Of a stretch of 64,000 nt of DNA, positions 28,253 to 42,279 are shown in pieces. The notes beneath the pieces were generated by a model. It was not told the DNA's origin. It worked only from the letters and a program-made list of their open reading frames with translations, and ran no database searches. Source of the stretch: Haloarcula marismortui ATCC 43049 (GTDB taxonomy: Archaea; Halobacteriota; Halobacteria; Halobacteriales; Haloarculaceae). The position numbers and the translations under genes were made by a program. Each line of letters opens with the position of its first letter. Positions within the stretch are counted from its first letter, which is position 1. The stretch covers positions 2,728,001-2,792,000 of the forward strand of contig NC_006396.1 of assembly GCF_000011085.1 (NCBI RefSeq), read 5' to 3'.

Positions 28253-28426
28253 ATGAGCACGTACACTGTTCGCGGTAGTTTCCCGGCCCGAGACGGCCCA
28301 CAACAGTTCGAGAAGGAGGTTGAGGCGCCAAACGAAAACGTCGCTGAAGAGCGCGTTTACAGCGACTTCGGCTCCCAGCACAACCTCAAGCGCACGCAGA
28401 TCACGATCGAGGAGGTGGCAGCATGA
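28253..28426 (+). CDS. rpl18a: 50S ribosomal protein L18Ae (LX)
   Basis: A 57-residue archaeal ribosomal protein LX/L18Ae (MSTYTVRGSF at the start, EKEVEAPNENVAEERVYSDF, LKRTQITIEEV). The start at 28253 was chosen because the conserved sequence begins at this Met; the frame is open 25 codons upstream. Its stop overlaps the prefoldin alpha ATG by 4 bp, giving the standard archaeal cluster rpl18a-pfdA-ftsY. Confidence 0.92.
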   Translation: MSTYTVRGSFPARDGPQQFEKEVEAPNENVAEERVYSDFGSQHNLKRTQITIEEVAA

Positions 28427-28887
28427 TGGGCGGTGGCGGCGGTGGCGGCGGTGGCGGTCAGATGCAGCAGGTCGCACAGGAGATCGAGCAGATGGAGCAG
28501 GAAGTCGAGGCTATCGACGAGGAAATCGAGCGCCTCCGCGAGAAGCAGACTGACATCGACGAGGCCATCGAGGCCATCGAGACGCTCGACTCAGGGTCCA
28601 CGGTGCAGGTCCCGCTCGGCGGCGACGCCTACATCCGCGCAACGATCGAGGACATCGACGAGGTCGTCGTCTCCCTCGGTGGCGGCTACTCCGCAGAGCG
28701 CGAGCAGGACGGCGCTGTCAGCACGCTGGAAACAAAGAAGGAGACGCTGGACGACCACATCAGCGACCTGCAGGAAGAGAAGGCCGAAGTCGAGACCGAG
28801 ATGGAGGAACTCGAACAGCAGGCCCAGCAGATGCAACAGCAGCAGATGCAGCAGATGATGCAACAGCAAGAGCAGGAAGACGAGTAA
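28423..28887 (+). CDS. pfdA: Prefoldin alpha subunit
   Basis: A 154-residue prefoldin alpha, part of the hexameric jellyfish-like chaperone that passes nascent proteins to the thermosome. Two long coiled-coil helices (about 14-53 and 100-150) flank a beta-hairpin region with VQVPLGGDAYIRATI and VVVSLGGGYSAER, as in the family. Oddities are a run of ten glycines after MM at the N-terminus and a Gln/Met-rich C-terminus. It overlaps rpl18a by 4 bp and precedes ftsY by 7 bp. Confidence 0.94.
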   Translation: MMGGGGGGGGGGQMQQVAQEIEQMEQEVEAIDEEIERLREKQTDIDEAIEAIETLDSGSTVQVPLGGDAYIRATIEDIDEVVVSLGGGYSAEREQDGAVSTLETKKETLDDHISDLQEEKAEVETEMEELEQQAQQMQQQQMQQMMQQQEQEDE

Positions 28888-28894
28888 GGCCGCC

Positions 28895-30184
28895 ATGTTC
28901 GACGGACTGAAGGACAAACTCAGCGGGTTCACGAGTGACGTCGAGGAAGACGTCGACGACGACGCACTCGAAGCGGAGGACGAACCGGACGCCGACGAGG
29001 CGGATGGGGAAGCGCCCCCCGATCAGGCGACTGAATCCGATCCCGTGGCGGACGCGCAGGCGTCCGAAGGCGACACAGCGGAACCAACAGCCGAAACCGA
29101 CCAGCCACAGGCTGATTCTGAACCGCCAGCCGCAGATTCCGAGGCGACAGCTGAGTCAGCCACAGCGTCGGCCACGGCAGTCGAAGACGCGGATGCGGTC
29201 CCCGACGAAGAGTCACACCCGGATGACGCCGCGGAGACCGAAGAGGACGCGGCGACCGAAGCCGAGTCGGAGTCTGACGAAGACGACGATGACGGCGGCC
29301 GCGGCCTCGCCGCGAAGGCGAAGCTTATGGCGACCGGGAAGACGGTCATCGAGGAGGAAGACCTGCAGAGCCACCTCGACGACCTCGAACTGGCGCTGCT
29401 GTCGAGCGACGTGGAGATGAGCGTCGCCAACGAGATTCTCGACGGCGTCAAGGAGAACCTCACGGGCCAGACCCGCCGACGGCTCTCCAGCACGGGGAAC
29501 CTCGTTCGAGACGCGCTCCGGGAGTCGCTGTACGATGTCATCAACGTCGGCCAGTTCGACTTCGACGAACGTGTCCAGCAGGCAGACAAGCCTGTCACCA
29601 TCGTGTTCACCGGCGTCAACGGCGTCGGGAAGACGACCTCGATTGCGAAACTCGCCCAGTACTTCGAGGACCGTGGACTCTCGACGGTGCTCGCCAACGG
29701 CGACACCTACCGCGCTGGCGCAAACGAGCAACTGGAGAAACACGCCGAGAACCTCGATAAGAAGATCATCACTCACGAGCAGGGGTCGGACCCGACGGCG
29801 GTCGTCTATGACGCCGTCGAGTACGCCAAGGCCAACGACATCGACGTGGTGCTGGGTGATACGGCCGGCCGACTCCACACTTCCGACGACTTGATGGCCC
29901 AACTGGAGAAGATCGACCGCAACATCGATCCGGACATGACGCTGTTCGTGGACGAGGCGGTCGCAGGTCAGGACGCCGTCAACCGGGCGCGCGAGTTCAA
30001 CGATGCGGCCGAAATCGATGGGGCGATTCTGACGAAAGCCGACGCTGATCCGCAGGGTGGCGCGGCTATCTCTGTCGCGCACGTCACCGGGAAGCCGATC
30101 CTCTTCCTGGGAACCGGGCAGGACTACGACGACCTCGACCCGTTCGATCCCGAGGAAATCGTCGACAGTCTCATCGGCGAGTAG
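28895..30184 (+). CDS. ftsY: Signal recognition particle receptor FtsY
   Basis: A 429-residue SRP receptor GTPase. A long acidic, alanine-rich N-terminal A-domain (about 15-135) is followed by the N and G domains. The P-loop is GVNGVGKTTS (about 240-249), followed by DTAGRLHTSDDL, then TKADADPQGGAAIS with the guanine-binding TKAD. FLGTGQDYDDLDPFDP is the typical C-terminus. It is the last gene of the rpl18a-pfdA-ftsY cluster; ffh lies 4.3 kb further on. Confidence 0.96.
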   Translation: MFDGLKDKLSGFTSDVEEDVDDDALEAEDEPDADEADGEAPPDQATESDPVADAQASEGDTAEPTAETDQPQADSEPPAADSEATAESATASATAVEDADAVPDEESHPDDAAETEEDAATEAESESDEDDDDGGRGLAAKAKLMATGKTVIEEEDLQSHLDDLELALLSSDVEMSVANEILDGVKENLTGQTRRRLSSTGNLVRDALRESLYDVINVGQFDFDERVQQADKPVTIVFTGVNGVGKTTSIAKLAQYFEDRGLSTVLANGDTYRAGANEQLEKHAENLDKKIITHEQGSDPTAVVYDAVEYAKANDIDVVLGDTAGRLHTSDDLMAQLEKIDRNIDPDMTLFVDEAVAGQDAVNRAREFNDAAEIDGAILTKADADPQGGAAISVAHVTGKPILFLGTGQDYDDLDPFDPEEIVDSLIGE

Positions 30185-30456
30185 GCCTCAGACTTCGCGG
30201 TTATTGTTGCTGCAATATCTGGGCTATGAGCAGCTATTGTCGACCCTGATTGTGGAGAACTCGGAGCGGCCGCGCGCTCTCGCCGGGAATGCACTGCGTA
30301 CGATGCAGCAAATATCACCACATCAACGGAGGTGTGGTCGTTTTCGCCGACAGGAGCGCGTTGAAGTCGACCGCTGCTCATCATTGACTCACGCAGTATT
30401 GGAGCGTGACACTATGCATACAATCGAACGACGCGACGGGTCTGGCGATGTCGTGA

Positions 30457-30681
30457 ATGGGGAAGACAGCGATGCCTGACGGACGCAACTGTCGGCAAGT
30501 CGCGCCGGCTGATGTCGCACCTGAACTCATTGAGCCGTTCCCGGGTGACCGTCGTCCCCCTGTTGACGAGCCACGGCTCGTAACTGACGGGGGTGAGCCG
30601 ATGCCCGGTGTGCCAGGTGACGGTGACGACACCTGCGGCTGCGGGAGGTCCCGCAGGTATGGGGACTGCTGCAGGTACTGA
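30457..30681 (+). CDS. Small SEC-C-motif-like protein
   Basis: A 74-residue frame, MGKTAMPDGRNCRQVAPADV at the start, ending CGCGRSRRYGDCCRY. The end matches the pattern of the zinc-binding SEC-C motif (CxCGxxxxYxxCC) found at SecA C-termini and in small stand-alone proteins. The middle is proline/aspartate-rich and unlike a known fold. ATGs at 30457 or 30472 could start it. Six-base stems after the stop (30681-30699) may end transcription. It lies alone after ftsY. Confidence 0.5.
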   Translation: MGKTAMPDGRNCRQVAPADVAPELIEPFPGDRRPPVDEPRLVTDGGEPMPGVPGDGDDTCGCGRSRRYGDCCRY

Positions 30682-30699
30682 CCCGTTAGGTTCACGGGT
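30681..30699 (+). terminator. Hairpin after the SEC-C-like gene
   Basis: ACCCGT and ACGGGT form a perfect six-base stem with a seven-base loop starting at the stop codon of the small gene. No long T-run follows. The call is tentative. Confidence 0.3.
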
Positions 30700-30968
30700 T
30701 ATCGTGTCGCTAAACGGCGACCAACCGGGTTTTGACCGCGGAACGGGTGTCTCACTCACAGTGTAGGGCAGGGTAGCACGACCTGAGGACGCAAATACTA
30801 TGCACTCGATAATCGCTCGGAAACAGTGTGCATAATTATACCCCGAGTATCGAACCACACCGTAGCACGTCGAAGCTCGTGTGATCGAAGCGTATAACGG
30901 TCCGTGAACCGGTCGAAATACCGGAGTCGGGCTAATCAGGGTCTGAAACAGATTGTTTTGCCAACCGG

Positions 30969-30984
30969 CACACCTTCGGGTGTG
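30969..30984 (+). ncRNA. CACACC(UUCG)GGTGTG hairpin, possible structured RNA element
   Basis: A perfect six-base stem is closed by a UUCG tetraloop, one of the most stable RNA loops. It lies between two other hairpins in a gene-free stretch and is followed by a short AT-rich run. Whether it is transcribed is unknown. Confidence 0.3.
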
Positions 30985-31037
30985 GCTAATTCGTTCTGTC
31001 GCTGCTCCGTCAGACGCTTAGCAGGTCATTCATAAAC

Positions 31038-31058
31038 TGCCCGGGTTCTCTCCGGGCA
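31038..31058. promoter_or_regulatory. Dyad TGCCCGG-n7-CCGGGCA before the glycoprotein gene
   Basis: A perfect seven-base inverted repeat with a seven-base spacer lies directly after a cataaac TATA-like element and ends six bases before the ATG at 31065. It could be an operator or an RNA hairpin at the start codon. Confidence 0.4.
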
Positions 31059-31064
31059 AACGCT

Positions 31065-31604
31065 ATGGGACGACCCACATCTCGACGGAATGTTATCAAA
31101 ATCGCAGGCGGCGCACTTGTGGCGCTTGCTGGCTGTAGTGACACTGGCGGTAGTACGGAGTCCGACGGCGGCGGTGCCGAAGCGCCGGGTACATCTACGG
31201 CAGCAGGGCCTGACGCGATGACGGAAGCCGGTACAGAGTCCGAGACAGACACTGCGGACCAGACCGAGGAAGAAACCGGACTGGATACCGAGACGGAACT
31301 GGGCGAGAACGAAACCGATGCTCTCGGAAACGAGACCGAGATGTCGGATACTGAAACAGATCTGCCCGGCAATGAGACCGGAGTACCGGGGAACGAAACT
31401 GAAATGCCTGGCAACGGGACCGAGGCTCCAAGCAACCAAACAGGCGTGCCCGGTAACGAAACGGAAATACCAGAGAACGAAACTGGGACGGCCGGAAACG
31501 AGACTGCGGTTCCGGGCAACGAAACTGACCTGCCCGGCAATGAGACCGGAACGGCTGGGAACGAGACAGGCAACGAGACGACCGAGAACGACACCGGAAC
31601 GTAA
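31065..31604 (+). CDS. Tat lipoprotein with tandem PGNET glycosylation-sequon repeats
   Basis: A 179-residue protein. The Tat signal TSRRNVIKIAGGALVALAGC ends in a lipobox cysteine, so it is anchored outside the cell. After a Ser/Thr/Glu-rich segment, residues from about 84 to the end are near-perfect repeats of about seven to eight residues such as LPGNETG, VPGNETE and TAGNETA. I count 14 N-X-T sequons. This is probably a heavily N-glycosylated, extended, mucin-like stalk. No enzymatic domain is present. The repeats also repeat at DNA level, so copy number may vary between strains. Confidence 0.8.
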   Translation: MGRPTSRRNVIKIAGGALVALAGCSDTGGSTESDGGGAEAPGTSTAAGPDAMTEAGTESETDTADQTEEETGLDTETELGENETDALGNETEMSDTETDLPGNETGVPGNETEMPGNGTEAPSNQTGVPGNETEIPENETGTAGNETAVPGNETDLPGNETGTAGNETGNETTENDTGT

Positions 31605-31655: not shown

Positions 31656-32306
31656 CTACTCTCGGGCGGCCTCGACGGCGTCGACGAACGCCGCGGCCTG
31701 TTCGCGGACGCCGTCCATGTCGTCGTTTTCGATGGCCTCGTAATTGACCAGCGCCGAGCCTGCGCCAACGGCGACCGCGCCGGCATCGAAGAACTCATCC
31801 ACGTTATCGGTCGAGACACCACCGGTCGGCATAATCGGCACATCACCGAGTGGGCCCTGCAGCGCGCCGATGTGGGCCGGGCCGACCGTTTTCGCTGGGA
31901 ACATCTTCAGGATATCCGCGCCCGCTTCCATCGCGTCGGCGGCCTCCGTCGGCGTCATGACGCCCGGGATAGCGAGGACGCCCTCGCGGTTGCACACGTC
32001 GATGACGTCCTCGTTGAGGTTTGGCGCGAGGACGAACTCCGCGCCGGCTTCGATGACGTTGCGGGCGGCGGCGGCGTCCATGACCGTGCCGGCCCCGATG
32101 ATGGCGTCGGTGTCGTCGAGTGCCTTGTCGACGGCGGCGATCATGTCCGAGCAGCGCTTCGCGTCGGCCGTCAGTTCCAGTGCTGTGACGCCGCCCTCGT
32201 GGACGGCTGTCGCCACGTCGACCATCTTTTCCTCGGGAATCCCGCGCAGGACTGCTGTGACACCACTGTCGACCAGTTCCTGTTGTACCGCCTGTTTGCT
32301 CGTCAT
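31656..32306 (-). CDS. kdgA: KDPG/KHG aldolase
   Basis: A class I aldolase that cleaves 2-keto-3-deoxy-6-phosphogluconate (or 4-hydroxy-2-oxoglutarate) to pyruvate and an aldehyde, in the semi-phosphorylative Entner-Doudoroff route of haloarchaea. The 216 residues contain the Schiff-base lysine K134 in DILKMFPAKTVG, E44 in TALELTADA, and IIGAGTVMDAAAA and PTGGVSTDN. Start MTSKQAVQQE. No kinase or dehydrogenase is nearby, so substrate choice is uncertain. The next upstream gene is a cupin. Confidence 0.9.
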   Translation of the reverse strand: MTSKQAVQQELVDSGVTAVLRGIPEEKMVDVATAVHEGGVTALELTADAKRCSDMIAAVDKALDDTDAIIGAGTVMDAAAARNVIEAGAEFVLAPNLNEDVIDVCNREGVLAIPGVMTPTEAADAMEAGADILKMFPAKTVGPAHIGALQGPLGDVPIMPTGGVSTDNVDEFFDAGAVAVGAGSALVNYEAIENDDMDGVREQAAAFVDAVEAARE

Positions 32307-33817: not shown

Positions 33818-33871
33818 TCAATATCCCTCTCCCTGGTGAACTGTGGAGGCGGAGACAGCCTCCAGAGCACC

Positions 33872-34384
33872 ATGGCTGGAAGCAAACAATCGACACGGAG
33901 ACAGGTTCTCCGGACAACAGCAGCCCTCGGCGTCGCAGGTGTTGGGCTGTCTGTGACTGGAGCAACTGCAGCGAACCCAGGAAAGGGAGATGAGCGCGGT
34001 GCGGGGAAAGAGTTTGGTCGTGTCTATGCGAACGACGTACTCTGGCGGACAAACGTTGTGAACGTCCTTGACGAGCGTCCCGACCCGGAAGACAAAATCT
34101 ACTTCCTGCATGATGGAAGCAGACCGATCGTGGCTAACGAGAAGGTGAGCGCCGACCAACGCTCACCGTTCGTCTCCGAGTCAGCATCCGGTGACCGGGA
34201 CTGGAACGGTGGGCAATGGACGCACTTCTCAGCAGAGGTGACTGACATTGCGGCGTTCAATGACGACGCACCGCTGGCAACCGATAGCGATATCCTAGAC
34301 AAAGACTACATCAGCGTCACTCTCGGCCGCCCTGGTTTCGGCCCACCCGACTTCTTTGTCTGCCCACTGAACGGTCGCGCATAG
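33872..34384 (+). CDS. Tat-exported protein, unknown
   Basis: A 170-residue protein. The N-terminus STRRQVLRTTAALGVAGVGL is a Tat signal followed by an AXA-type site (TGATAANP). The mature domain is rich in Asp, Gly and aromatic residues (NDVLWRTNVVNVLDERPDPE, DKIYFLHDGSRPIV). Cysteine is nearly absent, with one in FFVCPLNG. The start at 33872 was preferred over a Met 12 codons upstream because the Tat signal begins there. The family is not recognised. Base composition is slightly lower in GC than the neighbours. Confidence 0.65.
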   Translation: MAGSKQSTRRQVLRTTAALGVAGVGLSVTGATAANPGKGDERGAGKEFGRVYANDVLWRTNVVNVLDERPDPEDKIYFLHDGSRPIVANEKVSADQRSPFVSESASGDRDWNGGQWTHFSAEVTDIAAFNDDAPLATDSDILDKDYISVTLGRPGFGPPDFFVCPLNGRA

Positions 34385-40756: not shown

Positions 40757-42148
40757 CTATTCGTCGCCGTACTCGCCGAGTTCGCACTCCGCGGCCGGCC
40801 CGGAATCGCACGCGTATCCGACATCGTCTCGGGACGTGATCTCGACGATGTCGATGAAGTTCCCGTCAGACTGTTCGCTCGCTGGCAGCCCCTGAGCAAC
40901 CGGAATGTCCCGCTGGGCCTGGTGGTCGCAGGCACGCATCGTCTCCTGGCCCATGCCGATGTTGCTGTACTCGTAGTCCTCCAGCTGGCGGATGACCTCC
41001 GGCGGGTAGAACGTGCCTGCCCGCTCGGCGGCGGCCGCGTACTGGAGCGTCTGCGAGTAGGCGAGCTGGGCCGGCCCGGACGGGACGCGGTCGTACTCGT
41101 CCTGGAACGCCTGCGTGAACGCGTTCGACGCCTCGTTGTCGATCTGGGAGTCCCAAGCGATCGTCCCGTAAATGCCTTCGATGGACCCACCGGCGGCCTG
41201 TGCCATCGGGCGGTTGTACAGCGGGACGACGAGCTCCATGTCCTCGTCGATACCGGCATCGACGGCCTGCGAGACGGAGTTTGCGCCGTCCAGCCCGTAG
41301 TGGTTCAGGACGAGCACGTCCGCGCCGCTGTTTGCGGCCTCCGAGAGATACGAGGAGAAGTCGCTGGTCCCGAGCGGCGTCGGGACGCTGTCGACTTCTT
41401 CCCAGCCGATTTCTGAGAGGAACTGGTTCATCGAGTCCTGCTGGGTCTGGCCCCAGGAGTAGTCGGCGTACAGTTGGTAGAAGGAGTTGTCTGAGCCGTA
41501 CTCGCTTTCAAGCACCGGTGCGAGCGCCTGGCCGGTCATGTACGCGTTGAACATCTCCCGGAACCCGTACCGGGCGCAGTCTTTCCCAGTCGTGTCGTTC
41601 GAGTGGGTCAGACAGGCCATGAACATGACGTTCTCCGTCTGACAGAGGCCCTGCACGGCGATGGCCACTGCACTTGAAGAGCCGCCTGAGATCATCACCA
41701 CGTCGTCTCGGTTAATCATCCGCGAAGCGGCCTGCCGGGCGGTGTCGGCGTCGGTTGCGGTGTCCCCGTTTACTGAGTCGACCGTGTACCCGAGGACGCC
41801 GTCGCCGCTGAGAGCCTCGAAGCTGTCCACCCAGCCACCCCCGTTATTGAGGTGTTTCTGGGCGAGTTCGTACGCCCGGAGTTCGTCCTGTCCCTCAGAG
41901 GAGTAGGGACCGGACTGTGGAACGTTGAATCCGAACGTGACCGTGTCGCCCTCGACCGGGAAGTTCCCGAGCGACGGGTAGTCGTCGCCGCCGTCGCCAC
42001 CACCATCGCCACCATCGCCGCCGTCGCCACCACCATCGCCACCGTCGCCACCGGAACAACCGGCCAGTCCCGTCAGCCCTGCCACACCTGCGACGCCCGT
42101 ACTCTTCAGCAACTGTCGTCGGTTGACCGAACTGCCATTAGTTGGCAT
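40757..42148 (-). CDS. ABC transporter substrate-binding protein (periplasmic-binding fold type I)
   Basis: A 463-residue Tat-exported lipoprotein. MPTNGSSVNRRQLLKSTGVA contains the twin arginines; AGLTGLAGCSGG contains the lipobox. A Gly/Asp linker of about 25 residues (GGDGGDGGGDGG) follows. The ligand-binding domain has FGFNVPQSGPYSSEGQDELRA and TARQAASRMINRDDVVMISGGSSSA, typical of branched-chain/amide-binding proteins. It is transcribed first in the operon; livHMGF follow. Start at 42148 is nine codons inside an open frame. Confidence 0.9.
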   Translation of the reverse strand: MPTNGSSVNRRQLLKSTGVAGVAGLTGLAGCSGGDGGDGGGDGGDGGDGGGDGGDDYPSLGNFPVEGDTVTFGFNVPQSGPYSSEGQDELRAYELAQKHLNNGGGWVDSFEALSGDGVLGYTVDSVNGDTATDADTARQAASRMINRDDVVMISGGSSSAVAIAVQGLCQTENVMFMACLTHSNDTTGKDCARYGFREMFNAYMTGQALAPVLESEYGSDNSFYQLYADYSWGQTQQDSMNQFLSEIGWEEVDSVPTPLGTSDFSSYLSEAANSGADVLVLNHYGLDGANSVSQAVDAGIDEDMELVVPLYNRPMAQAAGGSIEGIYGTIAWDSQIDNEASNAFTQAFQDEYDRVPSGPAQLAYSQTLQYAAAAERAGTFYPPEVIRQLEDYEYSNIGMGQETMRACDHQAQRDIPVAQGLPASEQSDGNFIDIVEITSRDDVGYACDSGPAAECELGEYGDE

Positions 42149-42279
42149 GTTCCATACGGTGTCTGTATCTATCATAATAGTTTCGGTAGGTTAATCAACG
42201 ATTTCACGTCTGTAGACCGACACATCCCGGATAAATGGCGATCCGTAGCGTTATTCCGATCTGAATGGTTTGTTATAGC

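Follow-up and report, generated by a model that had tools for sequence, protein, structure and literature searches.

A predicted headless lipoprotein of Haloarcula with a dense array of N-glycosylation sequons: a candidate glycan-coated stalk

Results

The window analysed here is a 64,000-nucleotide stretch of the Haloarcula marismortui ATCC 43049 genome (contig NC_006396.1, positions 2,728,001 to 2,792,000 of the forward strand), and coordinates below are those of the window. A short open reading frame for a putative lipoprotein lies between ftsY and a kdgA-like aldolase gene, which together border a syntenic slot with the following features.

28895..30184, + strand: ftsY, upstream border of the slot
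31017..31036, + strand: conserved 20-base element CTTAGCAGGTCATTCATAAA with a TATA-like ATAAA, ending 28 nt before the ATG
31039..31057, + strand: inverted repeat GCCCGG-N7-CCGGGC between the probable TATA box and the ATG, imperfectly conserved in the alignment
31065..31604, + strand: headless sequon-array lipoprotein ORF, 179 aa from an ATG start, open over its full length in 15 orthologues
31065..31136, + strand: Tat-type signal peptide, twin Arg at residues 7-8 and lipobox LAGC (Cys24), with a sub-threshold Pfam Tat_signal match
31137..31307, + strand: Gly/Glu/Thr-rich linker ahead of the array, residues 25-81, seen in the sequence
31308..31595, + strand: sequon array, residues 82-177, with 14 NxT, the majority being NET at a 7-residue step, from sequence, repeats and counts
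31656..32306, - strand: kdgA-like aldolase, downstream border of the slot, named from a reading of its sequence

The N-terminal signal, MGRPTSRRNVIKIAGGALVALAGC, has a twin arginine in SRRNVIK followed by the uncharged h-region IAGGALVALAG and the LAGC lipobox. The Pfam Tat-signal model gave 13.8 bits, below its cut-off of 22.7; the RR, the GG of the h-region and LAGC are invariant in 15 of 15 orthologues. The first-pass annotation had placed the protein outside the cell on the strength of the Tat signal and lipobox, and the sequence supports this prediction: we infer that the protein is exported, lipidated via Cys24 and tethered to the membrane on the outside. Pfam found no domain in it, DUF4397 (PF14344) being absent, and NCBIfam and PDB sequence searches returned no match. 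The mature part contains 40 Asp/Glu and no Lys or Arg. An AlphaFold model built with the 15 orthologues (pLDDT 48.7, pTM 0.09) had no secondary structure, as expected for a disordered chain. Conservation across the orthologues led us to drop the reading of the frame as a chance or antisense ORF.

Upstream of the gene, CTTAGCAGGTCATTCATAAA is near-identical in all 15 species and has no second occurrence in the genome at up to 3 mismatches. Its position fits a leaderless mRNA, and we therefore regard it as the probable core promoter. The ~830 bases between ftsY and the lipoprotein gene (30185-31016) hold no convincing gene, and Rfam and tRNA scans of this gap found no RNA gene. Further upstream, a prefoldin-like ORF (28423-28887, + strand) starts with MMGGGGGGGGGGQMQQ, its poly-Gly being encoded by a 9-base tandem repeat at 28429-28457.

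Sequon asparagines occupy residues 82, 89, 103, 110, 117, 124, 131, 138, 145, 152, 159, 166, 170 and 175, so that the earlier count of 14 NxT in fewer than 100 residues is exact. All 14 Asn of the mature protein lie within NxT, and 11 of the 13 spacings are 7 or 14 residues, most of them 7. Shuffling the mature residues 20,000 times gave 2.70 ± 1.40 NxT with a maximum of 9; the sequons, conserved and within the predicted exported region, thus exceed chance (14 vs 2.7). At the DNA level, Tandem Repeats Finder (TRF) reported repeats with periods of 21, 42 and 84 and matches of 59-71%, which confirms the DNA repeats first described, though the copies have diverged. A search of the genome (4,274,642 bases, 9 contigs) with a DNA pattern of fixed G+C-rich letters gave zero matches, the pattern being too strict. 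Elsewhere in the window, a Tat lipoprotein resembling a substrate-binding protein (40757-42175, - strand) has a GGDGGD linker that derives from a tandem repeat at 41983-42053.

Orthologues with 9-15 NxT between ftsY and kdgA were present in 15 of 32 genomes of the genus Haloarcula, our own included; carriers identified by name include H. amylolytica, H. vallismortis, H. argentinensis and H. sebkhae. The length variation anticipated by the first-pass annotation is therefore seen between species, at one genome per species: the count of NxT ranges from 9 to 15, and the steps include gaps of 7 and of 14 residues. In three orthologue genomes, ~3 kb of other DNA separates ftsY from the lipoprotein gene; this insert, in related genomes, includes a nitrite/sulfite-reductase-like ORF.

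The same slot holds other lipoproteins in the genus, which the first-pass annotation had overlooked. Seven other genomes encode a Tat lipoprotein with a similar signal peptide and a DUF4397-type head (two verified by Pfam, the other five assigned by evident similarity), two encode a headless Glu/Thr-repeat lipoprotein free of sequons, and one encodes a headless form with three NxT. Of the 32 genomes, 31 were examined at the slot, and 6 of these 31 gave no slot lipoprotein gene. In 8 of the 10 genomes whose slot gene is of a non-sequon type, that slot gene was the best match to the query anywhere in the genome. Common descent is supported by this result, although the matches themselves are weak (E 1e-9 to 1e-3). 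We had expected the lipoprotein next to ftsY to predate the genus, but in 40 genomes from other genera of the family neither a DUF4397 nor a sequon lipoprotein comes after ftsY. In a rooted ftsY+kdgA tree, the sequon form is one clade with moderate support; the tree does not settle the order of headed and headless forms. Beyond the slot, a 182-aa Tat-signal protein is encoded ahead of an ffh-like gene (33836-34384, + strand). By tblastn it occurs at that place in only two other sequon-form Haloarcula genomes (G003, G023), and so was gained or lost recently.

In the mature parts of the 15 orthologues, NxT accounts for 185 of 190 Asn and NxS for one more; 157 of the 185 NxT sequons have Glu at X, and 124 of 170 inter-sequon intervals are 7 residues. 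Pairwise pN/pS was 0.18 for sequon Asn, 0.05 for sequon Thr, 0.11 for X and 0.43 between sequons. Amino-acid changes counted on the tree were fewer in sequon Asn columns than in other columns (0.58 vs 2.41, p=0.0003) and fewer at sequon Thr than in other Thr columns (0.33 vs 1.19, one-sided p=0.03), with silent changes more frequent (4.17 vs 2.75). Glu at X and Glu elsewhere did not differ in constraint (p=0.16), and X also accepts G, D, V, M, A, Q, S and K in sequons that retain their N and T. The residues that separate the sequons vary freely. Where an Asn is lost, 13 of 19 alignment cells hold Thr and none holds Asp, although Asp is one transition away, which is the pattern expected from selection for the sequon. 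For all these comparisons the counts are small, the column roles were set on the same alignment, repeats can misalign, and cells are not independent events. Sequon N and T persist although their codons have changed silently, and the middle Glu has no special conservation, so the data point to the sequon itself as the selected unit.

A single base change turns TET into NET, and the orthologues have ACC/AAC and ACT/AAT at the same columns. The early-branching genomes G012 and G020 have Thr at two columns where most have Asn, which suggests gain of sites. Genome G029 has two exact adjacent 21-base copies, as duplication of a unit would leave.

Similar arrays recur across Halobacteria, another point that had been missed. 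Among 392 Halobacteriales genomes, 61 carry the pattern NETx4NETx4NET in some protein, and they represent 22 of the 95 genera sampled; the reversed control pattern gave zero matches. The loci that were read encode mostly other surface proteins. Headless NET-array Tat lipoproteins occur in four genera: Haloarcula, another genus of the same family (L120/L122), and one in each of two other families (L181 and L198), with signal peptides that are unlike. From these different signals and places we infer that the headless forms arose separately. DUF4397-type proteins in several haloarchaeal families (L196, L197, L098 and L119, of which only L119 is verified by Pfam) have NET-rich stretches beside or inside the domain.

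Oligosaccharyltransferases of the STT3 family (PF02516) scored above the cut-off at two places in the genome. The two frames, L128 and L129 (G000:C8:382011 and 2868472), have 951 and 793 codons, and only one of the pair has to be the classical AglB. Tat is the export route of most haloarchaeal lipoproteins (PMC2945643). Among the N-glycoproteins of Haloferax volcanii are HVO_1624, a protein with a Tat lipobox, and two Tat substrates, HVO_1945 and HVO_C0054 (PMC8241124), so N-glycosylation is compatible with Tat export.

Discussion

We consider it probable that the gene encodes a membrane-tethered, disordered, acidic, headless stalk coated with AglB-dependent N-glycans. The product would be a Tat-exported lipoprotein free of any globular domain, held by Cys24 on the outer face of the membrane, with a very acidic mature chain of 155-156 residues that is predicted to be disordered. 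The membrane oligosaccharyltransferase AglB would N-glycosylate many of the 14 sites, which come about once per 7 residues. The outcome would be a stiffened, hydrated bottle-brush of negative charge that lies within the space beneath the S-layer or extends through it. The glycan-coated stalk of the first-pass annotation remains the best reading of the signal, the array and the selection on sequons, with glycans on the sites as its prediction; occupancy in dense sequon arrays may be low. S-layer spacing, hydration, shielding and adhesion would all fit such a brush, phage shielding and adhesion being guesses. The array probably originated within Haloarcula: single-base Thr-to-Asn changes (TET to NET), together with duplication of 21-base units, would have converted the Glu/Thr-rich linker of a lipoprotein encoded at this locus, and selection on N and T would then have kept the array. 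X is mostly Glu and thus more uniform than a free position, and ancestry from TET explains the Glu.

The same Glu-rich repeats could belong to an unglycosylated acidic spacer of a halophile, an E/T/G/N-rich disordered tail in which NET arose from 21-base duplication and composition and not from selection for glycans. Linkers in neighbouring lineages are E/T-rich without Asn, the DNA repeats have a 21-base period with two exact copies in one genome, and X favours Glu, all of which speak for a spacer. We nevertheless judge it unlikely, because N and T persist in repeat units whose silent sites have diverged strongly, just 5 of 190 Asn lie outside NxT, and Asp, although acidic and one transition away, never substitutes for Asn. 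The regular spacing (124 of 170 intervals) and the strong preference for Glu at X could also mean that NET heptads act as a binding motif at the peptide level, with a divalent cation, the S-layer lattice or some other envelope protein as partner, and are sequons only incidentally. This is less probable again, given the range of residues accepted at X while N/T are kept, a Glu at X that is constrained no more than Glu elsewhere, and inter-sequon residues that vary freely.

A further reading, in which loss of the DUF4397 head left behind a functionless lipoprotein gene that is now decaying, would agree with the headed lipoproteins in the slot of other Haloarcula and with the six genomes of the genus in which the gene was not found. 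It is very improbable, since all 15 species keep the frame, signal and lipobox intact, every class has a pN/pS below 1 and the promoter element is near-identical; on this conservation we dropped the decaying-pseudogene reading.

Compared with these alternatives, we favor the glycan-coated stalk. A broader possibility, which we hold tentatively, is that haloarchaea repeatedly turn lipoprotein linkers into small lipid-anchored 'N-mucins', headless glycan brushes being convergent and then selected, because Glu/Thr repeats are one base from N-E-T sequons. The components are of known kinds; what is new is a headless, dense sequon array that is selected and apparently invented more than once. If its sites are used, the protein would be a minimal genetically encoded glycan brush of 179 residues with about one site per 7 residues. 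In its host species the S-layer N-glycan is partly known, and it would offer a clean substrate for how AglB handles dense sites and Tat-exported chains. It also bears on what occupies the gap between the membrane and the S-layer, and on how single-base steps can create a new class of glycoprotein. Since a mature chain without Lys or Arg would not be cut by trypsin, standard proteomics could miss such proteins.

Within Haloarcula, the closest comparison is with the DUF4397 (PF14344) Tat lipoproteins, which occupy the same ftsY-kdgA slot with a similar signal peptide, whereas the window protein lacks DUF4397; L119, from another genus, has a sequon-rich stalk ahead of its DUF4397 head. Animal mucins are O-glycosylated. 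The first-pass label 'mucin-like' therefore serves as an analogy only, as the candidate sites here are N-linked and not O-linked and the mature chain has only 155-156 residues. The window protein resembles animal mucins and halomucin of Haloquadratum walsbyi, a secreted protein of 9159 aa (PMC4378361), in the idea of an extracellular, hydrated protective coat and in its Thr-rich chain; it differs in being small, predicted to be lipid-anchored and equipped with N-sequons, with O-glycosylation of its many Thr possible. The N-glycoproteins of Hfx. volcanii (SLG, HVO_2160, HVO_1624) are exported proteins with NxS/T, as is predicted for the window protein, one Tat lipobox protein being among them; HVO_2160, the largest protein of its species, has 19 confirmed N-glycosylation sites (PMC8241124), compared to 14 candidate sites in 96 of 179 residues here. 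With haloarchaeal Tat lipoproteins of the TatFind/TatLipo class (PMC2945643), the window protein shares the twin-arginine signal, the lipobox and an acidic Gly/Thr/Glu linker after the Cys, but it has no globular domain past the linker, and the linker itself is the NxT sequon array.
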